Assembly (NCBI GenBank): GCA_025963185.1
Contig: JAOPVE010000544.1
Span: forward strand, 1 to 48,966
Reading direction: 5' to 3'
DNA: 48,966 bases
Source of the DNA: Actinomycetes bacterium
Lineage (GTDB): Bacteria > Actinomycetota > Actinomycetes > Mycobacteriales > Cryptosporangiaceae
Shown here: positions 5,820 to 31,960 of the stretch, in pieces
Layout of the letters: each line of letters starts with the position of its first letter
Numbering within the stretch: position 1 is the stretch's first letter
Notes under the pieces: generated by a model
The model's input: only the letters and a program-made list of their open reading frames with translations
The model's database searches: none
Told to the model about the DNA's origin: nothing
Position numbers and translations under genes: made by a program

Positions 5820-5846
5820 CTGGGAGAACCCTGAACGTCCGCTGAG
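5820..5846 (-). promoter_or_regulatory. Three 11-bp-phased repeats, putative response-regulator operator
   Basis: On the minus (coding) strand the order is CTCAG-N6-TTCAG-N6-CCCAG, with starts exactly 11 bp apart (plus-strand CTGGG at 5820, CTGAA at 5831, CTGAG at 5842). OmpR/PhoB-type regulators bind head-to-tail repeats with an 11-bp period. The MprA box, as I recall it, is a pair of 8-bp direct repeats separated by 3 bp. Confidence 0.5.
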
Positions 5847-5865
5847 AGCCCGCTACCAACCCCCT

Positions 5866-5929
5866 CCTCCCCGAAGTGCGGTAACCGGGGCCGGTCGGGA
5901 CCGGCCGGAGTTACCGCACTTCGGGGAGG
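5866..5929. repeat. Intergenic nested palindrome, family A copy 1
   Basis: Perfect 20-bp arms (CCTCCCCGAAGTGCGGTAAC and its complement) enclose 24 bp holding a second perfect dyad, GGCCGGTC-GG-GACCGGCC. It lies between divergently transcribed genes, so unlike the other copies it does not follow a stop codon. Confidence 0.9.
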
Positions 5930-5952
5930 GGGAACGGCGTTCACAGCGTTTT

Positions 5953-5979
5953 CTCAGGAACGGTCAAGGCTGTTCCCAG
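5953..5979 (+). promoter_or_regulatory. 11-bp-phased NNCAG repeats upstream of the receiver-like gene
   Basis: CTCAG at 5953 and CCCAG at 5975 are 22 bp apart, with a degenerate middle unit TCAAG at 5964. This is the same phasing and orientation, relative to the downstream gene, as the site upstream of response regulator 1. It ends 22 bp before the start codon. Confidence 0.35.
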
Positions 5980-6001
5980 TGCGAGGGGCGACAACTGTGG
6001 C

Positions 6002-6421
6002 ATGCGCCTCTTCCGAACCCGCGAGAACGCCGACGGCGGGTCGCCCGCCGGTCCGCCGGCGGTGTCAGAACCCACTGTCGTGGTGGCCGTCGTCGGCAGT
6101 CTGCCGCTGGCCGCCCAGCTACCCGCCCTGCTGCCGCCGGAGTGGGCGATCCTCGACGCGCGCCCCGACTCGATCGGCGGCGCCGAACTGATCGTGCTGA
6201 CCTCGGCCACCGGATCCGCGGTGACCGCCGCCCGCACGGCCGCCCCGCTCGCCGGAGTGATCGGCCTTGTCGACGCACTCACGCCGACCTCGGTGATCGT
6301 GGACATCCTGGAGGCCGGCGCCGACGCGTGCGTGCGGTCCGCGGATCCGCTGGTCATCGCCGGCCACGTCGCCGCCTGCTACCGCCGCCGCTCCGACGCC
6401 GGCCACTTCCTCGCCAGCTGA
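6002..6421 (+). CDS. Small degenerate receiver-like protein
   Basis: 139 aa with strongly GC3-biased codons. From about residue 25 the alternating hydrophobic strands and helices (VVVAVVGSLPLAAQL ... AELIVLTSATGS ... GVIGLVDALT ... ILEAGADACVRSADPLVIAGHVAACYRRR) follow the order of a response-regulator receiver, including the AGA-D-x-x-R...L-x-A-H-V end helix. The acidic pair after strand 1 is absent, and the expected phospho-acceptor Asp after the third strand is Thr/Ser (LIVLTSAT). It would therefore be a phosphorylation-independent pseudo-receiver. It sits alone on the plus strand between two regulator-kinase pairs and between two copies of palindrome family A. The start ATG has only a weak, distant GAGGGG. 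Gene is likely real; the fold assignment is inference. Confidence 0.7.
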   Translation: MRLFRTRENADGGSPAGPPAVSEPTVVVAVVGSLPLAAQLPALLPPEWAILDARPDSIGGAELIVLTSATGSAVTAARTAAPLAGVIGLVDALTPTSVIVDILEAGADACVRSADPLVIAGHVAACYRRRSDAGHFLAS

Positions 6422-6462: not shown

Positions 6463-6516
6463 CCGAAGTGCGGTAACTATGGCCGCCCAGGGCCGGTCGC
6501 AGTTACCGCACTTCGG
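6463..6516. repeat. Intergenic palindrome, family A copy 2
   Basis: 16-bp arms (CCGAAGTGCGGTAACT and complement) around a 22-bp GC-rich centre. It lies between two convergent stop codons, so it could serve as a bidirectional terminator. Its right flank (GTTACCGCACTTCGGGG then AGGGGG) is identical to that of copy 1. Confidence 0.9.
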
Positions 6517-6524
6517 GGAGGGGG

Positions 6525-8027
6525 TCAGGCGGGCAGCAGGGGGAGGTCGAGAGTGAAGCGGGCGCCCTCGCCGGGGGCGGTGTGGACCTCGACCGTGCCC
6601 TCGTGGGCCGCGATGAGGGCGGCGACGATCGAGAGCCCGAGGCCGGATCCGCCGGACGAGCGGGTCCGCGCCGGATCGGCCCGGTAGAACCGCTCGAACA
6701 CCCGCTCGGCCTGCTCGCCGCTCATCCCGGGACCCTCGTCGGCCACGGCGAGCCTGGCGCGGCCGTCCGCCGTGGACAGCGAGACCGTGACCGGCGTGCC
6801 CGGCGGGGTGTGGGTGAGCGCGTTCGAGATCAGGTTGCCGACGACCTGCCGCAGCCGCGCGTCGTCACCGAGTACGACCGGCGCGTCCCCGGCCTCGGCC
6901 CGCAGCGTCACCGGGTGGCCGGGCGAGACCACCTTCGCGTCCCCGACCGCGTCGGTGGCGATGTCGAGCAGGTCGACGGGCTCGCGGGCGAGCGGCCGCT
7001 GCTGGTCGAGGCGGGCGAGCATGAGCAGGTCCTCGACGAGCAGGCCCATCCGGGTGGCCTCGGACTCGATCCGGCGCATGATCCGCTCGACGTCCCCCGG
7101 CGGGACCGCGCCCTGCCGGTACAGCTCGGCGAAACCCCGGATCGACGTGAGCGGAGTCCGCAGCTCGTGGGAGGCGTCCGCGACGAACCGGCGCATGCGG
7201 TCCTCGGAGGCCCGGGCGCTCGCCTCCGAGGCCTCGCTCGACCGGAACGCCGACTCGATCTGGGTCAGCATCGTGTTCAGCGCGCCGGCCAGCCGCCCGA
7301 CCTCGGTGCGCTCGTCGCCCTCCGGGACCCGCTGGGACAGGTCCCCGGCGGCGATCGCCTCGGCGGTGTGCTCGACGGTGACGAGCCTGCGCAGGCTGGA
7401 CCCGACGGCCACGAACCCCAGCGCGGCGAGCACCACGAGGATCGCCGCGCCGACGCCCAGCTCGACCACGGCGAGGTTGGCGGAGGTGTCGTCGACCTCG
7501 TTGAGGGTGATCCCCGCGACCGTCGTTCCGCTGCCGTCGCGATTCGGGGTGACGATCACGCGCCACTCGGATCCGCCGCTGCTCGCGGGCACCGTGAACG
7601 GCTTGTGGGTCTTCGTCAGGTCGACGCCATCGAGGTCGGGCGGCGACTGGTCGCCGGTCGGATCGCGGAACAGCGGATCCTGCACGTTGGAGCCGTCCGG
7701 GCTGAGCCGCCGCAGGTAGAACGCCGTGGTCAGGGCGGGCCTGCCGGTGCCCTCCTCGGCGCCGGTCGCGGGGGGTGGGGTCCGGGCCGGGTCGGGTGAC
7801 GGGCGGACCCCGGGGAGCCGGCCGCCGGGGAAGCGCCCGCCGCCAGGTCCGCCGGTGGTGGAGGCGAGTTGCTCGTCGGCGCGCTGGATCAGGTAGTAGC
7901 GCAGCGCGAACACCCCGGTGATCCCGGCGGCGGTCAAGCCGACGAACGCCAGCAGGACGAGCGCGACGACGAGCTTGACCCGGAGCGGCGTCCGGTCCGG
8001 GAGCGACCTGAGCGCGGCGAGCTTCAC
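6525..8027 (-). CDS. Sensor histidine kinase (system 2), paralogue of system 1
   Basis: 500 aa from a GTG that overlaps the stop of its regulator (GTGA). TM1 spans about residues 17-45. The extracytoplasmic region is Gly/Pro-rich at first (GGPGGGRFPGGRLPG) and reaches about 184; TM2 is about 186-208, followed by HAMP. HisKA has the active His at about 287 (ASHELRTPLTSIRGF), and HATPase_c has NLISNALTHTPPG, DEGPGM and GGSGLGLSI. From HAMP to HisKA it is almost the same as kinase 1, but its sensor has a proline/glycine-rich insert that kinase 1 lacks. The stop lies 9 bp from palindrome copy 2. Confidence 0.93.
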   Translation of the reverse strand: MKLAALRSLPDRTPLRVKLVVALVLLAFVGLTAAGITGVFALRYYLIQRADEQLASTTGGPGGGRFPGGRLPGVRPSPDPARTPPPATGAEEGTGRPALTTAFYLRRLSPDGSNVQDPLFRDPTGDQSPPDLDGVDLTKTHKPFTVPASSGGSEWRVIVTPNRDGSGTTVAGITLNEVDDTSANLAVVELGVGAAILVVLAALGFVAVGSSLRRLVTVEHTAEAIAAGDLSQRVPEGDERTEVGRLAGALNTMLTQIESAFRSSEASEASARASEDRMRRFVADASHELRTPLTSIRGFAELYRQGAVPPGDVERIMRRIESEATRMGLLVEDLLMLARLDQQRPLAREPVDLLDIATDAVGDAKVVSPGHPVTLRAEAGDAPVVLGDDARLRQVVGNLISNALTHTPPGTPVTVSLSTADGRARLAVADEGPGMSGEQAERVFERFYRADPARTRSSGGSGLGLSIVAALIAAHEGTVEVHTAPGEGARFTLDLPLLPA

Positions 8028-8731
8028 GTGCGGGGCAGCCGCAGCACGTAGCCGACCCCACGCAGCGTCTGGATCACCCGGGGCTCGGAGGTGTCGACCT
8101 TCTTGCGCAGGTAGGAGATGTAGGACTCGACGATGTTGCCGTCGCCGCCGAAGTCGTAGTTCCACACGTGATCGAGGATCTGCGACTTCGACAGCACCTT
8201 GCCGGCGTTCGTCATGAGGTATTCGAGCAGCTTGAACTCGGTCGGCGACAGTTCGACCAGCTCACCGCCCCTGCGGACCTCGTGGGTGTCGGCGTCCAGT
8301 TCGATGTCGGCGAACGTGAGCTGGGCGCCGGGGGCGGCGGCCGCCTGGTCCTGCGCGCGCCGCAGCACGGCGTGGATCCGCGCGATGACCTCGTCGAGGC
8401 TGAACGGCTTGGTGACGTAGTCGTCGCCGCCCAGGCTGAGTCCGGTGATCTTGTCCTCGGTGGCGTCGCGCGCGGTGAGGAACAGGACCGGCACCCGCTG
8501 GCCCTCGGCGCGGAGCTTGCGCAGCACGTCGAAGCCGTCCATGTCGGGAAGCATGACGTCGAGCAGCACCAGGTCGGGCTGGGTGTCGCGCGCCCTGGCC
8601 ACCGCTTCCAGGCCGGTGATGGCCGTGGCGACCTCGAAGCCCGCGAACCGCAGGCTCGCAGACAGCAGTTCGACGATGTTCGGCTCGTCGTCGACGACGA
8701 GCAGTTTCGTACCCGCGTTGCCCTCGGTCAC
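8024..8731 (-). CDS. OmpR/PhoB-family response regulator (system 2)
   Basis: 235 aa. Receiver has LLVVDDEPNIVELL, acceptor Asp in LVLLDVMLP and Lys in YVTKPF; the winged-helix DNA-binding domain has ELSPTEFKLLEYLMTN and IVESYISYLRKKVD. The start is GTG with a strong GGGAGGAG 8 nt upstream. The recognition helix region is almost the same as in regulator 1, so the two may share or compete for DNA sites. The kinase follows with a GTGA overlap. Confidence 0.93.
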   Translation of the reverse strand: MTEGNAGTKLLVVDDEPNIVELLSASLRFAGFEVATAITGLEAVARARDTQPDLVLLDVMLPDMDGFDVLRKLRAEGQRVPVLFLTARDATEDKITGLSLGGDDYVTKPFSLDEVIARIHAVLRRAQDQAAAAPGAQLTFADIELDADTHEVRRGGELVELSPTEFKLLEYLMTNAGKVLSKSQILDHVWNYDFGGDGNIVESYISYLRKKVDTSEPRVIQTLRGVGYVLRLPRT

Positions 8732-10421: not shown

Positions 10422-10886
10422 ATGACAGAAGCGGATCCCGGCCTCCAGCTCGTCCACCTGCTGCGTGCCCTCACCGTGCAGTTCGACCTGGCCGGAGCGG
10501 CGTTCGCCCAGGCCAACGGGCTGCACGCGACGGATCTGCGCGCCCTGATCCACCTCCTCGACGCCGGCCGGGCGGGCCTCGATCCGACCCCGGGGTGGCT
10601 CGGTGGCCAGCTCGGGCTCAACTCCGCCTCGGTCACCGCGCTGGCGGATCGACTGGAGCACCTCGGCCTCGTCCGGCGCGAACGCGACACCACGGATCGC
10701 CGCCGCGTACTCCTCCGCGTGACGGCTCAGGCGACCGCGCTGGGCTGGGGCTTCTTCGGCCCGCTCATCGGCCGGATCGTCACCGCCACCCGCCCGTTCA
10801 CCCCCGCCGAACTCGCCACGGCGGACCGGGTACTGCGCGCGATCCTCGGCTCGGCCGACACTGGTATCGAGAACAGTGCCCATTAG
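10422..10886 (+). CDS. MarR-family transcriptional regulator
   Basis: 154 aa. The central winged helix-turn-helix reads LGGQLGLNSASVTALADRLEHLGLVRRERDTTDRRRVLLRVT in three parts: recognition helix with SASVTALADRLE, then LGLVRRE, then the wing DRRRVLLRVT. This is typical of MarR proteins, and the flanking helices form the dimer interface. It probably controls the divergent hydrolase in response to a small ligand and itself through the dyad between them. The hybrid kinase gene begins 35 bp downstream on the same strand and may be co-transcribed. Confidence 0.9.
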   Translation: MTEADPGLQLVHLLRALTVQFDLAGAAFAQANGLHATDLRALIHLLDAGRAGLDPTPGWLGGQLGLNSASVTALADRLEHLGLVRRERDTTDRRRVLLRVTAQATALGWGFFGPLIGRIVTATRPFTPAELATADRVLRAILGSADTGIENSAH

Positions 10887-13762: not shown

Positions 13763-13868
13763 CACGAACGTGTTTACCGCATCACCCTTGGTGAAGGCAA
13801 CAGTTTGGCCACGATCCTTACAGGTCTCTCACACTGGATCGATCCGCGGTTCCTGACACCATGGCGAG

Positions 13869-18320: not shown

Positions 18321-18356
18321 CAGAGCCTCCGAACTGCCCCCTGATCCCCCGCCAAA

Positions 18357-19790: not shown

Positions 19791-19791
19791 G

Positions 19792-20433
19792 TCAGTCCTC
19801 CACGACGTGCCGGGCGGCGAGCGCCCCGACGGCGAGCACCCCGGCGTCGAACAGCAGGATCAGCGGCAGCCAGAGCCCGGCGTGGCCCTCGCCGGCCTTG
19901 ATCGCGAACACCGGCACGGGAGCGGCGGCCGGGAGCATGAGCAGCGGCAGGGTGGCTCCCCGGGCGTGCGCCGACTCGGTCATCAGCCCGAACAGCGCCC
20001 CGACAGCGGCGAGCCCCACCGTCCCGAGGATCGCGGCCGTGATCCCGGCAACGGACGGCGGCCCGGCGAACACGGCGGCGGCCACCAGCAGCACGGCCTG
20101 CACCACCAGCAGTTCGGCGGCGAGCGCGAGCACCTTGCCGAGATAGATGGCGGATCGCCGGACGGGCGCGAGCAGCAGCCCCTCCAGCGCCCCGTCCTCG
20201 CTCTCGGCGTCGTGGGCGCGCTTGAGGGCGAGGACCGTGGCGAAGACGACGGTGATCCACCCCAGCGCCGGGACGGTCTGCGCGGTGCGGGCCGGATCCG
20301 GGGCGGCGACCACGGCGAACGCCACGATCAGGGCGCCGGCCAGCGGGAGGACGGACCCGGCGATCCGGTGGCCACGGGCCTCGATCCGCAGGTCCTTGGC
20401 GGCGACCGCGGTGGCCTCGGTGAACAGGGTCAC
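19792..20433 (-). CDS. ccmB: CcmB-like ABC-transporter membrane subunit
   Basis: 213 aa from a GTG overlapping the ccmA stop (GTGA); family members are about 220 aa. It begins EATAVAAKDLRIEARG and has six helices, including IVAFAVVAAPDP and LGWITVVFATVLALKRAH. The sequence RAHDAESEDGALEGLLLAPV is characteristic of CcmB (compare the E-x-G-x-L-E-x-L-x-x-SP element). It would form the channel with CcmA. Confidence 0.87.
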   Translation of the reverse strand: MTLFTEATAVAAKDLRIEARGHRIAGSVLPLAGALIVAFAVVAAPDPARTAQTVPALGWITVVFATVLALKRAHDAESEDGALEGLLLAPVRRSAIYLGKVLALAAELLVVQAVLLVAAAVFAGPPSVAGITAAILGTVGLAAVGALFGLMTESAHARGATLPLLMLPAAAPVPVFAIKAGEGHAGLWLPLILLFDAGVLAVGALAARHVVED

Positions 20434-21176
20434 GGGCGGCCGGTCCCGTAGAGGGGCTGGCGGCGGTCCGCGGTGAGCTCGCCGTTGAACAGGGTGAGCA
20501 CGCGGGTGGTCCGGAACGTGGGCGGCCGGAAACCGGTGGTGGCGAGCACCGCGCCCCCGTGGGCGGCGACCTCGGTGACCAGGGATTCGACGATCGCCGC
20601 CGCGTCGGGGTCGAGCCCGGCGCACGGCTCGTCGAGCAGCAGCAGCTCGGGCCGGCGCAGGTAGCACCGGGCGAGCGCGAGGCGCTGGCGCATCCCCGGG
20701 GAGAACCCCCGCACCGGATCGCTGTGCAGGCAGAGCAGTCCCACCCGGTCGAGGGCGGCGGCTACCCCGGCCCGCGGGACCCCGTTCATCCGGCACCAGA
20801 AGCGCAGGTTCTCGGCGGCCGTGAGGTCGAGGTAGCAGCGGGTGGTATCGCCGATGAGCTCGGTGTCCAGCCGGATCGCGGCCCGCCCCTCGGGGGTGCC
20901 GAGGTCGTGCCCGAGGATCCAGCCGCCGCCGCTGGTGGGGGTGAGGGCGGTGGCGATGACCCGGAGCAGGGTGGACTTGCCGGATCCGTTCGGCCCCCGC
21001 ACGAGCAGCGCCTCGCCGCGCTCGACGGACAGGGTGATGTCGCTGATCCCGGGGACGTGGCCGTAGTGCCGGGAGATCCGGTCGAGGTACACCGCGGCGC
21101 GCCCCGGTGCGGGCGCGGGGGGCGGCGGGGTGGTGCGGGGCTCGGCAGCCCGGCGGGTCATCGTCCAGCTACGCAT
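20430..21176 (-). CDS. ccmA: CcmA-like ABC-transporter ATPase
   Basis: 248 aa from the ATG at 21176 with AGGG close by; further ATGs at 21194 and 21161 are possible. Walker A GPNGSGKST, a Q-loop region with LDTELIGDTTRCYLDLT, signature FSPGMRQRLALAR, Walker B ELLLLDEPCAGLDPDA and an H-loop position occupied by T/G (GAVLATTGF). First gene of ccmABCD. The missing switch His is worth noting: CcmA proteins commonly have His there. Confidence 0.88.
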   Translation of the reverse strand: MRSWTMTRRAAEPRTTPPPPAPAPGRAAVYLDRISRHYGHVPGISDITLSVERGEALLVRGPNGSGKSTLLRVIATALTPTSGGGWILGHDLGTPEGRAAIRLDTELIGDTTRCYLDLTAAENLRFWCRMNGVPRAGVAAALDRVGLLCLHSDPVRGFSPGMRQRLALARCYLRRPELLLLDEPCAGLDPDAAAIVESLVTEVAAHGGAVLATTGFRPPTFRTTRVLTLFNGELTADRRQPLYGTGRP

Positions 21177-21236
21177 AAGCCCTGATTGTGACATTACGGC
21201 CACCGCGCCGCCGCCAGGCGCGCCCGCACCCCCCAA

Positions 21237-21284
21237 AAGTGCGGTAACCCCGGCCGGTCAGAACCGGCCGGGGTTACCGCACTT
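21237..21284. repeat. Intergenic palindrome, family A copy 4 (perfect hairpin)
   Basis: Perfect 22-bp arms, AAGTGCGGTAACCCCGGCCG plus GT and complement, with a CAGA tetraloop. It begins 30 bp after the multicopper oxidase stop and precedes ccmA, so it probably ends the oxidase transcript. It is the most regular copy in the window. Confidence 0.92.
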
Positions 21285-21314
21285 CGCCAAGGGTGGCCCG
21301 CGGGTGGGATCAGG

Positions 21315-24300
21315 TCAGGACAGCACCGCCAGGCCGTCCAGATCGATCCGCGTTCCCGTGGCCTGGGGCCTCTTGGTACCCAGGACCGTGACCTTCACGG
21401 TGTGGGATCCCGACGCCAGCCCGGTACCGAGCACCCGGGCGCCCTTCGCCGACGCGCTGGCGTAGAAGTCCTGGTCGGACTCGATGCCGTCGACGGCGAT
21501 CCGTGCGATGCCCTGGCCCATCCCCGTCGCCGAGAGCAGCGCGAGGCTGGACCCGGACGGCACGGAGAACGAGGCCGTGGCCGCCGACGAGGCGAAGACC
21601 GCCCTGCCGCCGGAGTAACTGCTGGCCGCCGCGTTGGACCAGGTCCCGGTGCGGATCGCCGCCGTTTCCTGCAGCAGCGACACCGTCCGGGCCACGCCCG
21701 TGACCTCCAGCGTGCTGTTGCCCGCCTTGTCCTTGGCCTTGACCGAGAACGCGTACGTGTGGCCGGGGGCCAGCGACAGCGTCGTCGACGTGGCCGTCGC
21801 GGACGGCAGGGTCAGCGTCGACCAGGTGCCGTCCGTGGACTGCCGGATCGTGTACCCGGCGATCCCGGACCGGTCACTCGCCGACCAGGACAGGCTGACC
21901 GGCACCCCGGTCGCCCCCGACCCGCCCGGCTTGAGCACCGGGACCGGCACCGTGAACAGCTGCGGAGCGGTCTTGTCCGTTCCGGTACCGACGGGGAGCG
22001 TGTACTGCTGCTCACCGATCGCCGAGGCGTTGCCGGCCACGTCGACCGCCTGGTAGCGCAACCGCACCGAGGCCGTGACCGGGATCGGCGAGGTGTACGG
22101 CACCGCGTCCGCCGGGGCGGATCCGTCGAGGCTGTAGTACACCGGTCCCGGCTCGGACGAGGTGAGCGTGACCAGCCCGTTCGCCATCGTGGCCGACACC
22201 GTCGGTGCCGTGGTGTCCACGGTGAACGTCCGGGTGGCCGCGGCCCCGTACACCCGGTCCGGGCTGAGCGGCCGGACCTTGAACGTGTACGTCCCGTCCG
22301 CCTCGCCCTGGTAGCCCATCGGGGACCGGCACGGTACGAACTGGTCCGCCCCGGTGGAGAGCGAGCAGGCGAACGCCGTGTCCGGGGTGTCGGACGTGAA
22401 CGAGAACGACATGTCCTTGCTGGTGGTCAGGCCCGACGGTCCCGAGGTGACGGTCGCCACGGGGACGACCGGCGCGGGCAGGGCCAGGCACTGGAGCTGC
22501 ATGCCGGCCGGAGGACAGGCCGCGGGCTTCGGAAGCACCCGCTGCAGGCCCCACATGCCGGCCTCGGTGAACGGCCTGCGCATGTCGCCGTAGTAGTAGT
22601 CGCCCGGCTGGTGGCCGATGCCACCTGCTCCGCCGAGCACGTGCGCGGTGACCATCTCCCACGGGCCGACGCCCTTGGCCTCCACCGACTGCCCGTCCGG
22701 CGTCAGCGCGTCCTGGAGCCAGGACAGGCCGCCGAGGCTGAACACGTGCGTCTGCTCGCTGCCCGGCGCGACCAATGCGTGCACCGTCAGCGGATCCCCC
22801 GCGTACGACTGCATGATCGGCGTTGCCGGGTCACCGAACGCCGCGGACGAGAACGCGTCGGCACGGTTCAGATCCCTGGGCGCGTTCTGGTAGTTGAGCA
22901 GCGCGTTCTCGGGCTTGTCGAGCACCGTGCGGTACGGCATGAAGCTCGACCCGATCTGCGGATCGCTGTCCGCCATGATCACCGAGAAGTCCCGGTAGTC
23001 GCCCTTGCCCGGCACGTGGACCACCACGGCACGGCCCAGGTTCGTCTCGGCACCCGACAGCGGATCGGTGAACGTCGACCCGCGGGGGGCCACCGTGAAG
23101 GATCCGTACAGGCCCTGCTTGTCGAGCCCGTTCCCGGCGAGGTCCGTGATGGATCCGCCGCCGATCCGGGCGTCGTCCGCCGAGTAGGTGTAGGTGCGCG
23201 AGGCACCGTCCGGGATCGTCGTGTCGGGGTTCCAGCCCACCGCGGATCCGCTGGACGCGGAGTCGGTGGTCAGGCCGGACAGGTGGAACGAGACCCTGCC
23301 CTGCTTCGCCGAGTTCGTCACCTTGACCTGCACACAGTCACCCACGGCCACGTGCAGGATCAGCGGATCCGGCCGGGTGGTTCCGGCGATCACCCCCGCG
23401 GCTATCGAACTGGGCACGAACGCCAGCTTCGCTCCGGCAAGCTGGCTCTTCACCGGGACGGCCGTCACGTCGAACGCACGGACGTTGGCTCCGGGCGCGC
23501 ACGGGCTCGTCGCCGTCCCCGCCACGGGTGGCCGCCCGCCGGTCTGGGTGGGCAGCGCCGCCACGGTCCCCGGCGTGGTCGCGCCAGGTAGTGGCCGCAG
23601 GTAGTTCGGATCGCCCGGATCGCTGGTCACCTTGCCGGGCAGCACCCGGATCAGTCCCCAGGCACCGTCGGCTGTTCGCCGGTTGATGCCGTTGAAGTAC
23701 AGGTAGTCACCTGGTGTGCCGTTCTTGCCACCGGCCCCACCCCCGAGGATCACCGAGAACTTCTCCGAGATCCCGTAGTGGATCGTGTCGGTGGTGCTCG
23801 CCTTCGCGGTCGAGTCCGGGTTCGTATACCGGTTCTCCAGCGAGAAGTTGTGCCCGTCGACGTGCAGGGTGTCGACCGTCGCGCCGACGTTGACGGTCCG
23901 GATCACCACCGGATCCTTCGGATAGGCCCGGGGCAGCGGGGTGATCGGATCCCCGTACTTGTACGAGCTGTACTTCAGCGACGAGTCGCCGGTGCCGTCG
24001 GTTCTGTCGGCGAGCGGGTTGGCCCGCATGTTCAGCGTCGAGTCCAGGGTGTTCCCGAAGCCCTTGTCGATGGTCAGCAGCGCGAGTTCGCGGTAGCTGC
24101 CCTTGACTCCGGCGGCCGGGGCCAGCGCGCTGGTGGTGTGGATGTCCACGATGGGTCCCGAGTCGACCTCGGCACCGCTGCGCGGGTCGTGGTAGGTCGA
24201 TCCCCTGGGCTCGATGATGAGCTGGCTGACCAGTCCGTGGGCCCAGGTGTGGATCCCGTCGACGTGGTCGTGCCAGAAGATGTTGTCCAGGTCGACGTCC

Positions 24301-27149
24301 GGGTACCAGCGGCCCTGGACGAACTCGACGCCCGCCCACTGCCCGGCCGCGTGGTCGCCCTCAAGCGGGCGGTCCAGCGTGATGGTGTTCGCGGCCTGGT
24401 CGACCGCGGTGATCTGCCGGACCTCGGGGCCCTGGCCGGACGCCGAGGCGTTCAGCGTCCCCGTGGCCGCGGGTCCGTCGGTGCCGAGCCCGACGCCCAG
24501 CCAGACGCCCTTCTGGAACTTCGCGACGCTGGTCAGGTGCAGCACCGTCGCGCCCTTGGCCACGGAGTCCGCGAGCTGCGGGTCCTCGGCCTTGTACGGC
24601 CGGACGGCCTGCTCGTAGGACATGCCGGTGATCACGCCATCGGAGGCCTGCGTGTCGAACTGCACATGGTGAATATGCATGTTGACCTGCGAGAACCCGT
24701 CCGCCGCGTTCTTGTCTGTCAGCTCGCTGGTGAGCGTGGTCGCCACGCAGTCACCGACGTTCGCGCGGATCGCCAGCGGCTGCATCGGCTTGGCGCCCGA
24801 GAGCACCGCGTCCTTGTCGTGGGCGAGCACGAACACCTTGCCCACCGGGTCGTAGTCCTTCGCCGAGACCTGCATGCCGTGCTCGATCGCGACGATGTTG
24901 AACCGGCGGATTCCCTCCGGCGAACCGTCGGAGCGCTTGGCCGGGCAGATCGCGTCGGTGCGGCCCGCGTACGGATCGACAGTGCCGGCCGTCTTCGGTG
25001 CGGTCGCGCCCAGCTCGCCGAGGTACGGAGCACCGGAGTGACCGGACGGCGAGAACGGCGGCCGGATCCCCAGGTGCGGGCGCATCAGCGGATACGCGGG
25101 ACGCCCGTTCAACGGGTTGAACAGCAGCACCGGACGGTCGCCGACGAACCGGTCGACCGGCAGCGCCGTCGCGTGCCCGGGCACGGTGTTGTAGTAGTCG
25201 ACCCAGCTGGTCTTGTCCTCGGGCTCACCGAGGTACTGCGCCGGGTTGGCCGGGTTGGTTCCCCAGTTCCACACCGTGGCGTCCTCGGCGTTCTTGCGCA
25301 CCCCCGGGCTCGGGAGCTGCGGGCGGATCCAGTCGTCGAGGTTCGCCGCCGTGATCGTCTGGCCGTTGATCGTCTTGCCGATCAGCGCGGTGGACTCGAC
25401 CGGGGCGGGCGGGTCGGTCCGGTCCGCCAGCGGGGCGAACTCGGGCTGCCGGGTGTCGTAGACCCGCCAGAACGACCACATGCCCGCGACGTAGTGCTCG
25501 GCGATGTGGCAGTGGAACAGGAAATCGCCCGCACCCTGCTGGACGCCGCCGGCGCCACCCTCGATCTCCAGGTTGTACGACTCGCCCGGGCCGAACGACT
25601 GCGAGTCCAGGCGCTCGGAGTCCGAGGCCTCCACCGGGTACTTGTTCAGGCCGGTGTGGGCGTAGTCGTAGGAGGAGTCCGCGACGGGGTTGAAGCGCCA
25701 GCGGATCCCGCCACCGTGCATGTGGAAGACGTGGAACATCTCGCTGCCAGCGTGCAGGATCCGGAACTTCGTCGGGTCACCGAGGTAGCCGCGCGGCATC
25801 GGGGTGGCCGGGTCGCCGAAGGTGTACGAGCCGTAGGCGTGCGCCTCCTGGTCGGGGGCTGGTTCGAGCCGGTCGTAGAAGGGCTCGGTCCGGTAGCTGA
25901 TCGCCCGGGTGCCCGGCCGGTACGCGTCGGTGTGCGGGTCAACGAAGGGCAGCGGCTGGTTGTTCTTGTTCAGCACCGCGTCCTTCTCGTTCTCGTTGCC
26001 GATCTCGTGGTAGAGCTGCACGTTCTCGCGGAACGACGGCCGCCCGTAGGGCTTGATGGTCATCTCCCAGCCCGACGGGGCCGTGACGGTGTGGGCCTCG
26101 TCCACCCCGTTGGGGTCCACGTAGGTCGAGCCGGGGGGCTCCACCACGAGGGATCCGAACAGGCCGTGGTTGACGAAGTCGCGGAAGCCCGCGCCCGGGT
26201 GCAGGTAGTGGGCGCCTTCGAGCGAGGCGTCCTCGGGCACGTAGTACGTGTAGGTCTTGGTCTCGCCCGCGGTGGGGTTCGAGGCCAGGTTGCGGCCGAC
26301 CGCGTCACCGGAGGATCCGGACAGCATGACGAGCCCGTCGATGTGCATCCCGAAGTCGCCGCCGGTGGCGTTGTTCGTGTACGTGATCGTGACGCAGTCA
26401 CCCTCGTTCGCGCGGATCACCAGCGGCTGGATCGCGTCGTTGCGCAGCCCGATCTGCACCTTCTGGGTCGCCTCCTGGTCCCGGATCGCGCCGATCTGGC
26501 TGGTCAGCGCGTACATCCGGCCCTTGGGATCGTGGTCGCCGAAGCGGTTCAGCGGAATGTTCACGTTGATCGCCTGGACGTCGTACGTGCGCGTCGGCGT
26601 CCCGTCCGGGCACGGGTTGTCCGCGGTCGGGGTGACGGTCGCGGCCGTGGCGGGCTGGCCGGCGGCGAGCGCCATCGCGCCGCCCGCGAGCGCCAGGACC
26701 GCGAACTGCGCGACGAGCCGGCGGCCGGTCCGGCGCAGGGTGGCCGCGGACGGCACCGGCACCGCGAACAGCAGGACGTGCGCGAGCGCGCTCGTCACCA
26801 GCGCGACCGGGAGAGCCAGCGCGAGATCCCGCGGCAGCTGCGCCGCGATCACCACGCCGGATCCGCCGAGAAGCTGCTGCGCGAGCGCGCCAGCGGCGAC
26901 GCCCGCCGCCGCCGCGATGCCCCCCGTGAGCACCTTCACGACCTCAGGCGCGCCCTTGACGAGCTGCCTCGACAGCCACAGCCCCACCACTACCGGTGGC
27001 AGGGCCAGCGCGGCCGCGAGCAGCCAGCTCGCGGTGAAACCGTCGGGCAGCGCGCCCGCGCGGCTGGCGAGCCAGGTCAGCCAGGCCGCCGGGACCGCCG
27101 CCAAGGGCACGGCCAGCGCGCCTAACCTAGACGTCGTGGTGGGATGCAT
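21315..27149 (-). CDS. Giant multicopper oxidase with polytopic membrane N-terminus
   Basis: About 1,944 aa; start MHPTTTSRLG has GGAG 8 nt upstream (another ATG at 27167). Residues 1-165 hold about five helices, ending in a cleavable-looking AAGQPATAA. Six cupredoxin-like domains follow in three pairs. Copper ligands: GMHIDG (about 270), HYLH (313), HVFHMHGG (471), HCHIAEHYVAGM (545; Cys and Met fit a type 1 site), MHIHHVQF (825) and FWHDHVDG (960). The third pair has lost them (VSFHLSGLT, THVFSLGG). Beyond about 1,550 come beta domains, including a chitobiase-like YYSLDGSAP and Fn3-like repeats. It resembles MnxG/MofA-type manganese oxidases, but substrate is not proven. It follows the small His-tailed membrane gene by 47 bp. 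Confidence 0.9.
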   Translation of the reverse strand: MHPTTTSRLGALAVPLAAVPAAWLTWLASRAGALPDGFTASWLLAAALALPPVVVGLWLSRQLVKGAPEVVKVLTGGIAAAAGVAAGALAQQLLGGSGVVIAAQLPRDLALALPVALVTSALAHVLLFAVPVPSAATLRRTGRRLVAQFAVLALAGGAMALAAGQPATAATVTPTADNPCPDGTPTRTYDVQAINVNIPLNRFGDHDPKGRMYALTSQIGAIRDQEATQKVQIGLRNDAIQPLVIRANEGDCVTITYTNNATGGDFGMHIDGLVMLSGSSGDAVGRNLASNPTAGETKTYTYYVPEDASLEGAHYLHPGAGFRDFVNHGLFGSLVVEPPGSTYVDPNGVDEAHTVTAPSGWEMTIKPYGRPSFRENVQLYHEIGNENEKDAVLNKNNQPLPFVDPHTDAYRPGTRAISYRTEPFYDRLEPAPDQEAHAYGSYTFGDPATPMPRGYLGDPTKFRILHAGSEMFHVFHMHGGGIRWRFNPVADSSYDYAHTGLNKYPVEASDSERLDSQSFGPGESYNLEIEGGAGGVQQGAGDFLFHCHIAEHYVAGMWSFWRVYDTRQPEFAPLADRTDPPAPVESTALIGKTINGQTITAANLDDWIRPQLPSPGVRKNAEDATVWNWGTNPANPAQYLGEPEDKTSWVDYYNTVPGHATALPVDRFVGDRPVLLFNPLNGRPAYPLMRPHLGIRPPFSPSGHSGAPYLGELGATAPKTAGTVDPYAGRTDAICPAKRSDGSPEGIRRFNIVAIEHGMQVSAKDYDPVGKVFVLAHDKDAVLSGAKPMQPLAIRANVGDCVATTLTSELTDKNAADGFSQVNMHIHHVQFDTQASDGVITGMSYEQAVRPYKAEDPQLADSVAKGATVLHLTSVAKFQKGVWLGVGLGTDGPAATGTLNASASGQGPEVRQITAVDQAANTITLDRPLEGDHAAGQWAGVEFVQGRWYPDVDLDNIFWHDHVDGIHTWAHGLVSQLIIEPRGSTYHDPRSGAEVDSGPIVDIHTTSALAPAAGVKGSYRELALLTIDKGFGNTLDSTLNMRANPLADRTDGTGDSSLKYSSYKYGDPITPLPRAYPKDPVVIRTVNVGATVDTLHVDGHNFSLENRYTNPDSTAKASTTDTIHYGISEKFSVILGGGAGGKNGTPGDYLYFNGINRRTADGAWGLIRVLPGKVTSDPGDPNYLRPLPGATTPGTVAALPTQTGGRPPVAGTATSPCAPGANVRAFDVTAVPVKSQLAGAKLAFVPSSIAAGVIAGTTRPDPLILHVAVGDCVQVKVTNSAKQGRVSFHLSGLTTDSASSGSAVGWNPDTTIPDGASRTYTYSADDARIGGGSITDLAGNGLDKQGLYGSFTVAPRGSTFTDPLSGAETNLGRAVVVHVPGKGDYRDFSVIMADSDPQIGSSFMPYRTVLDKPENALLNYQNAPRDLNRADAFSSAAFGDPATPIMQSYAGDPLTVHALVAPGSEQTHVFSLGGLSWLQDALTPDGQSVEAKGVGPWEMVTAHVLGGAGGIGHQPGDYYYGDMRRPFTEAGMWGLQRVLPKPAACPPAGMQLQCLALPAPVVPVATVTSGPSGLTTSKDMSFSFTSDTPDTAFACSLSTGADQFVPCRSPMGYQGEADGTYTFKVRPLSPDRVYGAAATRTFTVDTTAPTVSATMANGLVTLTSSEPGPVYYSLDGSAPADAVPYTSPIPVTASVRLRYQAVDVAGNASAIGEQQYTLPVGTGTDKTAPQLFTVPVPVLKPGGSGATGVPVSLSWSASDRSGIAGYTIRQSTDGTWSTLTLPSATATSTTLSLAPGHTYAFSVKAKDKAGNSTLEVTGVARTVSLLQETAAIRTGTWSNAAASSYSGGRAVFASSAATASFSVPSGSSLALLSATGMGQGIARIAVDGIESDQDFYASASAKGARVLGTGLASGSHTVKVTVLGTKRPQATGTRIDLDGLAVLS

Positions 27150-27196
27150 ACCGGTACTCCGTCTCATCGCTTCTGCTGTTGTGGCGTCTGCTGTGA

Positions 27197-27805
27197 TTAG
27201 TGGCTGTGGCCGGTGTCGGGCTGGGCGCCGAACGCGGCGTTCCCCAGCTCGATGACGATGGGCTTCGCAGATCCGGGATCGGTGAACTCCAGCTGCAGCC
27301 GCGCGCCGCTCCGGGGGACCACGAACGACAGGTGCCCCTGGATCCCCGCGTGCGGCAGGACCCGCGTGTTGGGCAGGTCCCCACTCGACGCCGCCTGGGC
27401 CGTCGTCTTCCCGCTCGCCGTCACCAGCAGCCGGAACTGCTTGGTGGTGAAGTCGATCGGCTTGTTCAGGTCGTTGGTCAGCGACACGGCGGTCTGGATC
27501 TGGGCGTGGTCCTCGTCGACCAGTCCGGACACCCCGTGGGTCGCGCCGGACAGGGCCCGGTGCGTGAGCCCGTCGACCGAGCGGACGAACTCCACGCCGA
27601 CGGTCCCGAAGCTCGTAGGCACCGGATCGTTGATGTGGTGTACCCCGCTGGCCTGCCCCGCGCCGGGACCGACGATCGTCAGCGCGAGCGCCGATCCGTA
27701 CGCCACCCCGACTACGGCGATGGCCATGGCGATCAGCGTGACGAGCAGGATCCGCAGGTTGGGAACGGATCCAGTGCGGCGCGGTGCGGCTGTGACGGCA
27801 GCCAT
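27197..27805 (-). CDS. Membrane-anchored extracytoplasmic protein with His tail
   Basis: 202 aa from an ATG with GAGGAGG upstream. One N-terminal helix (LRILLVTLIAMAIAVVGVAY) anchors a beta-rich outer domain (VSLTNDLNKPIDFTTKQFRLLV ... SFVVPRSGARLQLEF, split here by intervening residues), like the DUF4352/telomeric-repeat-like immunoglobulin folds of secreted actinobacterial proteins. His residues occur in VHHINDP, PHAGIQGH and the very C-terminus DTGHSH. It is the first gene of the oxidase transcript. I infer a metal-binding or assembly partner of the giant oxidase; the family itself I cannot name. Confidence 0.75.
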   Translation of the reverse strand: MAAVTAAPRRTGSVPNLRILLVTLIAMAIAVVGVAYGSALALTIVGPGAGQASGVHHINDPVPTSFGTVGVEFVRSVDGLTHRALSGATHGVSGLVDEDHAQIQTAVSLTNDLNKPIDFTTKQFRLLVTASGKTTAQAASSGDLPNTRVLPHAGIQGHLSFVVPRSGARLQLEFTDPGSAKPIVIELGNAAFGAQPDTGHSH

Positions 27806-27869: not shown

Positions 27870-27885
27870 CTCAGCCAACTCCCAG
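27870..27885 (+). promoter_or_regulatory. Two 11-bp-phased NNCAG repeats upstream of the oxidase operon
   Basis: CTCAG-N6-CCCAG on the plus strand, 65-80 bp upstream of the His-tail gene start; CTGGA lies one further period upstream (27859). Orientation is opposite to that of the other sites relative to the gene. Confidence 0.35.
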
Positions 27886-27916: not shown

Positions 27917-27970
27917 GCGAAGTGCGGTAACGGGGACCGGTCGGGGCCGGTCGCAGTTACCGCACTTCGC
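27917..27970. repeat. Intergenic palindrome, family A copy 5
   Basis: Perfect 15-bp arms GCGAAGTGCGGTAAC and complement around a centre with two GACCGG/GGCCGG units. It starts 22 bp after the NarL-type regulator stop and precedes the oxidase operon promoter. Confidence 0.9.
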
Positions 27971-27992: not shown

Positions 27993-28631
27993 TCAGGCGG
28001 GGCGGGCGGCCAGGCCGAGGCGGTGGGCGTGCAGGGCGGCCGCGGTCCGGTTGCCGACCGCGAGCGCCTGGTAGATGTGCGTGAGGTGGACCTTGACCGT
28101 GGCCTCGGAGATCCCCAGCGTGGTGGCGATCGACCGGTTCGACATGCCGGTGGCGAGGAGCGCGAGGACCTCCCGCTCGCGGTCCGTGAGGCCCTGCGGC
28201 GAGGATCCGGGGCCACCGGTGCGGGCCCGGAGGAGCACGCTCGCGGCGATGGCGGCCAGCGGCGACTCGCCCCGGAACGCGGCCCGGACCCCGCGCACGA
28301 GCTCGTCCGGATCGACGTCCTTGAGCAGGTACCCCTTCGCCCCGGCGTCGACCATGGCGACGATCCGCTCCCGGTCGGAGAACGAGGTCAGCCCGACCAC
28401 CCGGATCCCGGGGGCGGCCGCGACGATCCGGCGGGTGGCCTCGATGCCGTCGACTCCGGGCATCGACAGGTCCATGAGGACGACGTCGGGGCGCAGCGCG
28501 AGGGCCAGCTCGACGGCCTGTTCCCCGTCGGTGGCCTCGCCGACCACGTCGATATCGGCAACCGTGGCGAGCAGCTGGCGCAGCCCGGCGCGCATGAGCA
28601 CGTGATCGTCGGCCAGCAGCAGCCGGATCAT
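27993..28631 (-). CDS. NarL/LuxR-family response regulator
   Basis: 212 aa. Receiver RLLLADDHVLMRAGLRQLL, acceptor Asp in VVLMDLSMPG (about 54), Thr/Ser in VGLTSFSD and Lys in GYLLKDVDPDELV. The C-terminal LuxR helix-turn-helix reads LTDREREVLALLATG and SNRSIATTLGISEATVKVHL in the expected order. Its ATG overlaps the kinase stop (ATGA). Third gene of the SARP-kinase-regulator operon, directly upstream of the oxidase operon. Confidence 0.94.
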   Translation of the reverse strand: MIRLLLADDHVLMRAGLRQLLATVADIDVVGEATDGEQAVELALALRPDVVLMDLSMPGVDGIEATRRIVAAAPGIRVVGLTSFSDRERIVAMVDAGAKGYLLKDVDPDELVRGVRAAFRGESPLAAIAASVLLRARTGGPGSSPQGLTDREREVLALLATGMSNRSIATTLGISEATVKVHLTHIYQALAVGNRTAAALHAHRLGLAARPA

Positions 28632-30010
28632 CGCAGCGGCAGTTCGAACATGAAGGTGACTCCTTCTCCGGGTGCGGACGTGAGCTTGAGCTGGCCGTTC
28701 GCCTCGCTGGCCAGGTCGGACAACATGCGGATGCCGAAGTGCGGGCGGTCGTCGCCGGGCGGGACCGCGGGGTCGAAGCCGATCCCGTCGTCGGTGACAG
28801 TCAGTACGGCCCGCCGGGCGGTGGTGTCGAGGGTGACCCGCACGTGGGACGCCCCGGCGTGCACGGCCACGTTCCGCAGCGCCTCCTGCGCGGCCCGGAA
28901 CAGCGCGTCCCCGACCTCTGGACGCAGCGGCCGTGGGGACGGCATCTCCAGTGTGGTGGCGATCCCGGCCTCGGCGAGGGGTTCGAGCAGGCCGCCGAGT
29001 GCGGCGCGCAGCCCGGCCTCGTCGCGGTTGGGCGGGTAGATCTCGGAGATCAGGGTGCGCAGGCCCATGACTCCGGACCGGGTTGCGGCGGCCGCGGAGT
29101 CGATCCGGTCGGTTAGCTCGTGGGGGTCTGCGCCGCCGATCCGGTCGGTGGCCCGTGCTTCCGGGGATCCGGCGAACGCGGGCTGGAGTTCCTTGCTCAG
29201 CGCGGCCAGGCTGAACGACACCCCGGCGAGCTGCTGGACCACGCCGTCGTGCAGGTCGCGGGCGATCCGGCGGCGCTCGGCATCGGAGGCGTCCATCGCC
29301 CGCCACTGCAGCACCTCGCGCTCGCGCTGGCCCTGCCGCAGCCGCCGCACGAGCCGCCAGGCCAGCGGGAGCTGAAGCGCCTCCAGCGCGAGCAGGGCGA
29401 GTACGAACGCGGGCGCCACGGCACCGCCGATGCTGTCGGCGCGCGCGGTGATCGAGTCGAAGCGCAGGTAGATCTCCCACAGCAGCGGCCTGCCGCTGGG
29501 GGTGAGGACCCGCTCGTAGACCTGCAGCAGCTGGCCGTAGGAGTGTTCGAGCTTGTTCTCGTCGGCGGCGAGATCGGACAGGTTGGCCGTGGCGTTGCCG
29601 GTCGCCAGCACTTCCCGGTCGTCCGCTTCGAGCGCGAACCTCTCGCCGATGAGCCGGGGATCGTCCGAGTACACGATGGTGCCGTCAGCGGTCCACAGCT
29701 TGACCCGGACCTGCCGGTCGCTGCTCAGGTGCGTGCGGACGATCCGGTCGAACTCGGCGACCGCGGCCGGATCCCCGGCCGCGAGCGCGTCGGTGATCGC
29801 GGGCTGGACGACGTGCCTGGTCTGCAGGTCCGCGATCTCGCGGGCCTGCAGCACGGCCTCCTTGGTGGCGGCACTGCGCAGCGCGGCCATGCCGATGAGC
29901 GCGAGCACGACCAGCGCGGCGATCCCGGCGACGGCGAACTGCCCGATCGCCACGGCCCCGGACATCTCCCGCCCGGGACCATGCCGACGGGACCGGGAGC
30001 GCAGCCTCAC
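28628..30010 (-). CDS. NarL-type sensor histidine kinase (HisKA_3)
   Basis: 460 aa from a GTG that overlaps the SARP stop (GTGA); an ATG at 29965 lies directly after GGGAG and is less likely. TM1 is about residues 22-43, then a periplasmic sensor of about 140 residues with PAS/Cache-like features (VKLWTADGTIVYSDDPRLIGE), and TM2 about 190-212. The dimerisation box is RRRIARDLHDGVVQQLAG (His about 252), followed by HATPase with FRAAQEALRNVAVHAGA, DDGIGFDP and GIRMLSDLA. The sensor type suggests a small extracellular ligand or redox cue. Unit with the downstream regulator and the upstream SARP. Confidence 0.93.
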   Translation of the reverse strand: MRLRSRSRRHGPGREMSGAVAIGQFAVAGIAALVVLALIGMAALRSAATKEAVLQAREIADLQTRHVVQPAITDALAAGDPAAVAEFDRIVRTHLSSDRQVRVKLWTADGTIVYSDDPRLIGERFALEADDREVLATGNATANLSDLAADENKLEHSYGQLLQVYERVLTPSGRPLLWEIYLRFDSITARADSIGGAVAPAFVLALLALEALQLPLAWRLVRRLRQGQREREVLQWRAMDASDAERRRIARDLHDGVVQQLAGVSFSLAALSKELQPAFAGSPEARATDRIGGADPHELTDRIDSAAAATRSGVMGLRTLISEIYPPNRDEAGLRAALGGLLEPLAEAGIATTLEMPSPRPLRPEVGDALFRAAQEALRNVAVHAGASHVRVTLDTTARRAVLTVTDDGIGFDPAVPPGDDRPHFGIRMLSDLASEANGQLKLTSAPGEGVTFMFELPLR

Positions 30011-31917
30011 GCCGTGCCCGCGGCCAGGTAGAGCGGCTGGCGGATCGAGGCGGGGTGGCTGGCGATCCGGTTCCGGCGGTCCCCGGCCTGGTCCCGGCGC
30101 TCCCGGACCGGCGGGAACGCCGCGACCTCGGACCGGCGATCCGCTGTGGACTCGGCAGAGCGGACCAGCCCGCCGAGCACCCGCTGGCGGGCCGCCGACA
30201 TGGTGCCGGCCAGGGTGTCGCGCACGACCGGGTACCGGAACTCGAAGCCGCGCCCGGCGGCCCGCAGCATCCCGGAGTCGGACAGCTCCTCCAGCCGGTC
30301 GACGGCGGGCAGCGGCTGGATCCCGAGCACCCTGGCCAGCTCCTCGGGACCGCAGGGCTGCGGGAGCCAGGCGGCCACGGCGGCGGTCCGGAACAGGTCC
30401 GGGCCGAGCTCGGCGGATCGGGTGAGCACGAGTTCGCGCAGGTTGCTGGGCTCGGCGAGCCATCCGGCGACGTAGAGGGGCAGGCCGCCGGTGTGCTCGG
30501 CGAGGTCCGCTCCGTCGATGCCGCCGGGTCCGGCGAGGCCGTCGAGGTCGGCGGCGGTGAGCGGCCACAGGGTGAGGCGGGCGGCGGGTTCGAGCCGGGC
30601 CAGCGCGCGGTGGCCGCCGGTGCGGCAGGCGAAGATCAGCGCGCCGGACGAGGGCCCGTCGAGGCGCCGGGCGGCCGAGGCGAGGATCGCCACGCTCTCC
30701 GGATCCGCCCAGTGCGCGTCGTCGACGAGCAGCACGACGGGCCGCTGCCGGAGCAGGCTGCACAGGGCTTCGAGGACGATCGCCCGCGCGCCACCGGCCG
30801 AGGGATCCGCGGTGGTGAACGTGTCGAGTACCAGTTCGGTGACCGACGGATCCGACGACAGCGCCCGGACCACGTCCCCCAGCAGCGCGCCACGCAGGTC
30901 GCTCTCGAACTGCGCGCAGCGGATCCGCACGACGTGCCGTCCGGCGATGGTGCCCGCCAGTTCGTCGAGGAGCCGAGTCTTGCCGGCCCCGGTCTCGCCG
31001 TCGACGATCGCTACGGCCAGGCCGGTCGCCGCCGCGGCGCCCGAGGGGGCGGCCGTACCCGAGCACAGCGCGGTGAGCTGGGCCAGCTCGCCGGACCGCC
31101 CCACCAGCGGCAGGGATCCGGACGCCGGAGCCGCGGTCACGACCACGGGCGCCACGGCATCGCCGGGACCGGGCAGCAGCGCGCTCAGCGGGGCCCTGGC
31201 GAGGATCGCCTCGTGTAACGCGGACGTCTCGCGCATCGGCTCCAGGCCGGCCTCGTCCCGCAGGATCCGCTGGCAGGTGCGGTAGGTCAGCAGGGCCTCC
31301 TGCTGGTTGCCCGCGCCGTAGTGGGCGGTCATCAGCAGGCGGTAGCCGTCCTCGGCGAGCGAGTCGGCGCGGACGGCCGTGGTCGCGTACTCGGTCGCCT
31401 TGGGCATGTTGCCCCCGGCGAGGGCGGCCTGGGCGGCGGCGATGACCAGCCGCTGGTAGCGCTGGCCGTAGTAGCCGCGGGCCTTCATCGCCCAGTCCGC
31501 GTAGGGCTCGTCCTCCAGCAGCTCGGCGCTGGCCAGGCCGATCGCCTGTTCGAGCTGCGGCAGGGTCGTCGCGCGGTCCGCGAGCTCGGTGAACGCGGTG
31601 ATGTCGAGCCACGCTCGCCCGTTGTCGATCCGGTAGCCGCCGTGACCGGTGACCAGCAGGGACTCCTGCGGCCGGCCACCGGGGTTGAGCCGCTTGCGCA
31701 CCAGCGAGACGTAGTGCTCCACGGTGCTCGCGAAGTTGACCGGCAGCTTCTCGCCCCACAACAGATCCGCGAGCTGGTCCTTCGCGACGAACCGGCCTTC
31801 CTGCAGCAGCAGGATCTCCAGCAGCTGCTTGGGCTTGCGGCCGCCGAAGTCGCGGCTACCCAGCGTGCGGGTGGCAGCCGTCGCCTGCAACGTGCCGAAC
31901 AGGGTGAAGCTAGTCAC
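30007..31917 (-). CDS. SARP/BTAD-AAA regulator (AfsR-like, lacking TPR tail)
   Basis: 636 aa from a GTG with GGAGG 8 nt upstream. An OmpR-like winged helix (GRKPKQLLEILLLQEG ... STVEHYVSLVRKRLNP) is followed by a bacterial transcriptional activation domain to about 245. A STAND/AAA ATPase then has Walker A VDGETGAGKTRLL (about 307) and Walker B VVLLVDDAHWAD (about 400). The protein ends about 100 residues after a winged-helix-like segment, without the long TPR region of AfsR. SARPs bind direct repeats and activate operons. It heads an operon with a two-component system, and an 11-bp-phased repeat lies 17-43 bp upstream of the start. I infer control of the adjacent copper/heme genes. Confidence 0.92.
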   Translation of the reverse strand: MTSFTLFGTLQATAATRTLGSRDFGGRKPKQLLEILLLQEGRFVAKDQLADLLWGEKLPVNFASTVEHYVSLVRKRLNPGGRPQESLLVTGHGGYRIDNGRAWLDITAFTELADRATTLPQLEQAIGLASAELLEDEPYADWAMKARGYYGQRYQRLVIAAAQAALAGGNMPKATEYATTAVRADSLAEDGYRLLMTAHYGAGNQQEALLTYRTCQRILRDEAGLEPMRETSALHEAILARAPLSALLPGPGDAVAPVVVTAAPASGSLPLVGRSGELAQLTALCSGTAAPSGAAAATGLAVAIVDGETGAGKTRLLDELAGTIAGRHVVRIRCAQFESDLRGALLGDVVRALSSDPSVTELVLDTFTTADPSAGGARAIVLEALCSLLRQRPVVLLVDDAHWADPESVAILASAARRLDGPSSGALIFACRTGGHRALARLEPAARLTLWPLTAADLDGLAGPGGIDGADLAEHTGGLPLYVAGWLAEPSNLRELVLTRSAELGPDLFRTAAVAAWLPQPCGPEELARVLGIQPLPAVDRLEELSDSGMLRAAGRGFEFRYPVVRDTLAGTMSAARQRVLGGLVRSAESTADRRSEVAAFPPVRERRDQAGDRRNRIASHPASIRQPLYLAAGTA

Positions 31918-31933
31918 CGGCTGCCTCCGTGCC

Positions 31934-31960
31934 CTGGGCCGATCCTGAACGTGGCCTGAA
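31934..31960 (-). promoter_or_regulatory. Three 11-bp-phased repeats upstream of the SARP operon
   Basis: Plus-strand CTGGG (31934), CTGAA (31945) and CTGAA (31956); coding strand TTCAG-N6-TTCAG-N6-CCCAG. Compared with the site upstream of response regulator 1, both contain CTGGG-N6-CTGAACGT at the same phase. Confidence 0.5.

Follow-up and report, generated by a model that had tools for sequence, protein, structure and literature searches.

Phased CAG repeats in an actinomycete contig as predicted binding sites of two PhoP-type response regulators

The PhoP box of Mycobacterium tuberculosis, TCACAGC-N4-TCACAGC, is recognized by a PhoP tandem dimer; its spacer is strictly 4 bp long (an 11-bp period), and the affinity of PhoP is higher for three or four repeats (PMC4832192). 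The M. tuberculosis phoP gene has been described with sites downstream of +1 (PMC3413638), and the half-site of the Streptomyces PHO box is GTTCACC (PMC4832192, PMC9019756). Here we analyze NNCAG repeats with the same 11-bp phase in a 48,966-nucleotide stretch of an actinomycete genome of the family Cryptosporangiaceae (assembly GCA_025963185.1, contig JAOPVE010000544.1, positions 1 to 48,966), hereafter the window. An earlier note on this DNA had placed such repeats upstream of four transcription units, those of a response regulator (regulator 1, R1), a receiver-like gene encoding a 139-aa protein, a SARP operon and an oxidase operon, and had proposed that they form one regulon of an MprA-like regulator, tying an envelope-stress-type system to a copper/heme island. 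All four repeat sequences are present where the note placed them. We find it highly probable that the repeats are binding sites of two PhoP-type regulators encoded in the window, R1 and a second response regulator (RR2), with predicted activation at R1 and the 139-aa gene, a different arrangement at the SARP gene, and the oxidase operon not included.

The predicted system resembles PhoPR of M. tuberculosis, of the OmpR/PhoB family, in having a regulator that is orthologous by fold and sequence, a PhoR-like kinase, head-to-tail repeats at 11 bp, three or four half-sites per box and, as predicted here from sequence, autoregulation. Unlike M. tuberculosis PhoPR, it has two PhoP paralogues that appear to stem from a lineage-specific duplication; its half-sites are mostly YTCAG or CCCAG rather than TCACAG, and 10 bp separate its box from the predicted -10 element downstream, unlike the arrangement at the M. 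tuberculosis phoP promoter. Streptomyces PhoP and its PHO box belong to the same family and share the 11-bp direct repeats, but the half-site in the window is not GTTCACC. Streptomyces PhoP represents a different, phosphate-starvation clade.

Phased repeats in the window

The box upstream of R1 (minus strand, 5820-5846) reads CTCAG-N6-TTCAG-N6-CCCAG, or in extended form CTCAGCGGAC-GTTCAGGGTTC-TCCCAG, with three half-sites at an 11-bp period. The SARP box (minus strand, 31934-31960) reads TTCAG-N6-TTCAG-N6-CCCAG (TTCAGGCCAC-GTTCAGGATCG-GCCCAG). Upstream of the 139-aa gene, CTCAG-N6-TCAAG-N6-CCCAG (plus strand, 5953-5979) forms part of a box of four half-sites, TCACAG-N5-TCTCAG-N5-GTCAAG-N5-TCCCAG (5941-5979), whose fourth and best-matching canonical half-site, TCACAG at 5941-5946, had been overlooked. 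Direct repeats with a CAG core at exactly 11 bp and at least two half-sites are found at all three of these places. Near the oxidase gene, CTCAG-N6-CCCAG (plus strand, 27870-27885) comprises only two repeats; formally it has the two half-sites of a PhoP box, and we judge it a chance match.

Genome-wide scoring was carried out with pattern searches and a sequence-only covariance model; as the assembly is fragmented (547 contigs, 93% complete, 2.5% contamination), genome-wide site counts may miss sites. The exact pattern YTCAG-N6-TTCAG-N6-CCCAG occurs twice in the 5.38-Mb genome, both times inside the window, against an estimated chance expectation of about 0.01 for a pattern picked post hoc. 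When up to two mismatches were allowed, four genome matches (three in the window) were obtained, compared to six for the pattern read backwards, and a strict YNCAG triple gave nine matches compared to eight in the backwards control. Pattern counting by itself is weak evidence and does not decide whether the repeats are non-random. Because the pattern had been chosen post hoc and its backwards control was of similar size at two mismatches, an independent test was sought.

For this, a weight matrix was built from 48 boxes upstream of homologous regulators in other actinobacteria, with the genome under study excluded. Across both strands of the window, this foreign-trained matrix ranked the R1 box first (24.6 bits), the box of the 139-aa gene second (22.7 bits) and the SARP box third (20.6 bits), and all three sites are intergenic and in the same orientation as the gene downstream. 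The phased half-site scores of the R1 and SARP boxes (23.4 and 22.3) exceeded every triple maximum from shuffled windows (mean 12.3, largest 19.7, n = 60), and the site of the 139-aa gene, scored over four repeats (24.8), exceeded every quadruple maximum (mean 9.8, largest 23.4, n = 60). The oxidase site was at the level of noise, with 11.4 bits on the matrix and a phased score of 9.6 compared to a mean of 10.1 for the third-best null site. Taken together, these results show that at three of the four places the NNCAG phasing is genuine and departs from chance; likewise, the comparison of intergenic with coding frequency that the earlier note had suggested bears out these three sites, but not the oxidase site. 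Its proposal that an OmpR/PhoB-family regulator acts on 11-bp direct repeats is also upheld, with binding predicted. Separately, TTACAG-N5-TCACAC (plus strand, 13807-13836), in the gap before an open reading frame at 13857, scores 11.3 bits, which is the null level, and is possibly a weak half-box.

PhoP-type regulators and promoter geometry

R1 (5041..5757, minus strand) combines a receiver (Pfam PF00072) and a winged-helix Trans_reg_C domain (PF00486) with the recognition helix GIVESYISYLRKK, and is a response regulator of the M. tuberculosis PhoP type. Its best match in the PDB is M. tuberculosis PhoP (9ji3/3r0j, E 2.6e-99), with PrrA (4.8e-53), MtrA (3.1e-51) and RegX3 well behind. Since PhoP leads these three regulators by a wide margin, in a comparison that did not contain MprA itself, the label MprA-like is very probably wrong. 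A second PhoP-type response regulator, RR2 (8024..8731, minus strand), which had also been overlooked, is 80% identical to R1 and has a receiver and a Trans_reg_C-type domain. Directly downstream of RR2 lies a PhoR-like sensor histidine kinase (6525..8027, minus strand) with HAMP, HisKA and HATPase_c domains; no such kinase is adjacent to R1. Residues 316-386 of the kinase, the dimerisation region, match PDB entries 5ukv/5uky (E 2e-25), which we take to be M. tuberculosis PhoR. R1 and RR2 group as sisters in a 52-sequence tree (support 98/95), which points to a lineage-specific duplication among the sampled genomes.

Boxes of the same kind precede the orthologues of R1. In the same order, the sequences upstream of the orthologues contain 63 CAG-CAG pairs at 11 bp and 45 at 22 bp on the coding strand, compared to 14 and 7 on the opposite strand. 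Among named genomes from many actinobacterial families, whose orthologues are 60-80% identical, 29 of 41 have at least three phased CAGs upstream, compared to 3 of 41 on the reverse strand.

The distance from the box to the promoter is also conserved. When 49 orthologous promoters were aligned on the last phased CAG, a -10-like.A...T was found exactly 10 bp after it in 25 of the 47 readable cases, against a background of 2.9% per offset at other offsets (nominal P 3e-26). The predicted -10 element of R1, CACGAT (5804..5809, minus strand), carries the full.A...T signature exactly 10 bp after the last CAG, and the autoregulation of R1 that the earlier note implied is supported, as a prediction. 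Upstream of the 139-aa gene, the predicted -10 element GACAAC (5990..5995, plus strand) also lies 10 bp after the last CAG and keeps only the A of the signature. As the ATG follows 6 nt later, a leaderless mRNA is predicted. In three sister-genus homologues of this gene that offset is occupied by GAAAAA or GACAAA, again 6 nt before the ATG, and three homologues from another family have GACGGT or CACGGT at offset 10.

These data suggest a mechanism in which PhoP-type monomers would bind head to tail, one per half-site and one helical turn apart, with three or four half-sites allowing cooperative binding. Since exactly 10 bp lie between the last half-site and the -10 element at the R1 and 139-aa promoters, bound, phosphorylated PhoP should recruit RNA polymerase there as an activator overlapping the -35 region. 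R1 would be autoactivated, and an unphosphorylatable protein, described below, would be made alongside it. The PhoR-like kinase presumably phosphorylates RR2 and, given the similarity of the receivers, R1.

The pseudo-receiver, the SARP operon and the oxidase run

The 139-aa protein (6002..6421, plus strand), encoded divergently from R1, matched no Pfam or NCBIfam family. Its AlphaFold model (pLDDT 84.7) resembles receiver domains in Foldseek searches (TM about 0.6), and RCK-type Rossmann folds match with lower TM. Of the six homologues found (32-42% protein identity), three come from the sister genus and three from another family. In all seven aligned sequences the phospho-acceptor Asp is missing at the end of beta-3 and the conserved Lys is missing in the 'ADACVRS' segment, while Cys110, Cys126 and His122 are invariant. 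We therefore read the protein as a stand-alone, phosphorylation-dead pseudo-receiver. It shares with TadZ/CpaE-type receivers and HP1043 a receiver fold that lacks the phosphorylation residues, and differs from them in standing alone, in being PhoP-boxed, in its two invariant cysteines and in matching no sequence family.

Phased half-sites, some of them degenerate, and the -10 geometry are present upstream of 6 of the 6 homologues found, and the retention of a putative box at 32-42% protein identity makes a good phylogenetic footprint. No common gene neighbor of the pseudo-receiver was found in other genomes. From sequence, the protein is most likely a PhoP-induced modulator. More tentatively, and with rather less than even confidence, we suggest that it is a conserved and previously unnamed partner of PhoP signaling in some actinobacteria of this order, always PhoP-boxed and unphosphorylatable, which would tune PhoP or PhoR by binding the receiver or the kinase, for instance, and possibly with sensing through the two invariant cysteines.

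The SARP (30007..31917, minus strand) has Trans_reg_C, BTAD and AAA domains, and a GGAGG ribosome site precedes its GTG at 31917. It is followed on the minus strand by a HisKA_3 sensor kinase (28628..30010), the second gene of the operon, and by a NarL/LuxR-type response regulator (27993..28627) with receiver and GerE domains (PF00072, PF00196), the third. The SARP box ends 17 bp upstream of the GTG with its good ribosome site, and no.A...T stands at offset 10 of this box, of the RR2 site or of the oxidase site. Just upstream of the SARP box is TACGGT, a candidate -10; if it serves as such, PhoP bound at the box would block SARP transcription. With only these 17 bp before the start codon, binding here is suggested to repress more likely than activate, or else to act on an upstream promoter. 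A single mode of control across the proposed regulon finds no support, as R1 and the receiver-like gene fit activation and the SARP box lacks that geometry.

The oxidase gene encodes a multicopper-oxidase/Fn3 surface protein (21315..27805, minus strand) with no supported box, and heads a minus-strand copper/heme gene run (16569-27805) that also encodes an ABC ATPase, a cytochrome c assembly-like protein and a CopC/CopD fusion. Because the nearby two-repeat site is at chance level and faces away from the gene, the proposed link to the copper/heme island is unsupported. The regulon as supported here does not include the oxidase operon; of the shared regulon first proposed it keeps R1 and the receiver-like gene and, by sequence, the SARP operon.

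Alternative readings and the wider regulon

That the repeats are PhoP boxes rests on sequence, homology, conservation and spacing, from which we infer binding, phosphotransfer and the direction of regulation, and several observations weigh against it. Four sister-genus orthologues of R1 have no phased triple upstream. The promoter of RR2 and its kinase, where just two CAGs are in phase and offset 10 carries no -10, is not claimed as a target. A genome-wide search with the covariance model placed the R1 box among its best matches, behind C520, C99 and C37, yet only at E 1.2; neither the SARP box nor the 139-aa box was listed at E values up to 10, so that sequence alone gives no genome-wide proof for those two. 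Finally, Asn212 of M. tuberculosis PhoP contacts four bases (PMC4832192), and R1 has Gly at this position. RR2 keeps the DNA-contact helix residues Asn212, Glu215, Ser216, Tyr217 and Tyr220, with Ile in place of Val213, and the helix of R1 is otherwise the same.

As a result of this Gly, the half-site preference of R1 may differ from that of M. tuberculosis PhoP. Eleven other boxed orthologues also have Gly. Across boxed orthologues, A precedes CAG in 38 of 87 half-sites where Asn212 is kept compared to 7 of 33 where Gly is present, and C or T takes this position in 34 of 87 and 22 of 33, respectively (Fisher P 0.008, a statistic that ignores relatedness). The T/C-rich half-sites of the window boxes agree with this trend.

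We considered whether the SARP encoded at 30007-31917 could itself bind the 11-bp repeats and govern R1, the receiver-like gene and its own operon. Regulators of the SARP class carry a DNA-binding domain of OmpR type and recognize repeats at 11- or 22-bp spacing, of which the last stands 8 bp from the -10 (PMC10936776). The SARP boxes of AfsR/afsS resemble those described here in their 11-bp repeats close to the -10, and the recognition helix of the window SARP, STVEHYVSLVRKR, resembles that of PhoP. However, the distance to the -10 is 10 bp here, not 8, and the same boxes, with the same spacing, persist ahead of phoP and pseudo-receiver genes where the genome lacks this SARP, which at E values up to 1e-60 was found in only 3 of 101 genomes, its own included, the others being about 40% identical. 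Control by the SARP is thus very unlikely. An MprAB-type envelope-stress circuit with an MprA-like regulator would agree with the OmpR family of R1 and with the HtrA- and MacAB-like nature of other boxed genes (see below), but the far greater nearness of R1 to PhoP than to PrrA, MtrA or RegX3 (MprA was not in the comparison) and the match of both repeats and spacing to the PhoP box make it very improbable.

A further reading concerns the SARP box alone: only the R1 and pseudo-receiver sites would be functional, and the SARP box would be a chance match or the site of another regulator. Its nearness to the start codon (17 bp), the lack of a -10 at offset 10 and its absence from the genome-wide list at E values up to 10 are in keeping with this, as is the lack of a close orthologue for footprinting, since the only SARPs available (n = 3) are 40-49% identical and 0 of 3 have such a box just upstream, an absence that equally speaks against the SARP as the binding protein. 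Against it, the box exactly matches a pattern found twice in 5.4 Mb, and its phased score of 22.3 exceeds the maximum of 19.7 from 60 shuffled windows. We regard this partial reading as possible, if on balance unlikely, and favor PhoP-type binding at all three boxes.

Elsewhere in the genome, a promoter pattern of two YNCAG at 11 bp with SANNNT at offset 10 gave nine matches compared to three in the control, the convincing ones including those at C438 and C520. At C438 (L168), four phased half-sites (CTTAG, CTTAG, CCCAG and CTCAG, about 10772-10803) are followed 10 bp on by CATGGT and then by 6 nt to the ATG of a trypsin/PDZ protease gene of HtrA type, likely a leaderless, PhoP-activated htrA. 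At C520 (L155), a four-repeat PhoP-type box (minus strand, 4810-4860) with GAGGCT at offset 10 stands ahead of an HlyD / ABC ATPase / MacB operon, and at C37 four repeats in phase are followed by GAAGGT at offset 10. Phased boxes that lack the -10 signature precede a rhomboid and trypsin-like pair (C346) and a ferric reductase (C180). The regulon elsewhere thus probably includes HtrA and MacAB-like genes, which make an envelope theme plausible; the proposed tie to envelope stress survives in this form, but not on its MprA basis. Some other matches are poor PhoP targets: that at C63 lies near dnaB in a region where CACAG is heavily repeated, that at C131 precedes a gene read as NrdR-like from its first residues, and those at C359, C231 and C27 lie inside or at the start of genes.

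Two further observations were made. In the sister genome G003, an ABC ATPase gene is immediately preceded by a phased triple CAG (C27, L152, 2758), and one more PhoP-like response regulator is among the neighbors downstream of this gene. A dispersed palindrome of 48 bp, AAGTGCGGTAAC-N24-GTTACCGCACTT, with a CCGGTC/GACCGG core, has 135 genome copies with exact arms (control 0) and no copy in 100 related genomes, four of the same family among them. All of the copies listed have a length of 48 bp. The four in the window (5874-5921, 6466-6513, 21237-21284 and 27920-27967) are all intergenic, one between the two divergent PhoP-boxed genes, and have no T-run; the palindrome may be a REP-like element or a binding site.

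In summary, the regulon is well predicted and of a known PhoP kind, with no new mechanism; it has a duplicated regulator and an unnamed pseudo-receiver target. From a raw motif the analysis derives a PhoP regulon that can be tested, in an actinobacterium represented here solely by a fragmented assembly, and yields a transferable rule, CAG half-sites every 11 bp with the last 10 bp before an.A...T -10 element, that finds autoregulated PhoP promoters in many actinobacterial families. The natural variation from Asn212 to Gly, which goes with a shift in half-site bases, makes it readily possible to test the way PhoP reads DNA. The results also point to the pseudo-receiver as a conserved PhoP target and, if its suggested role is true, it would be a built-in feedback brake beside a duplicated PhoP whose half-site preference is altered through Gly212.

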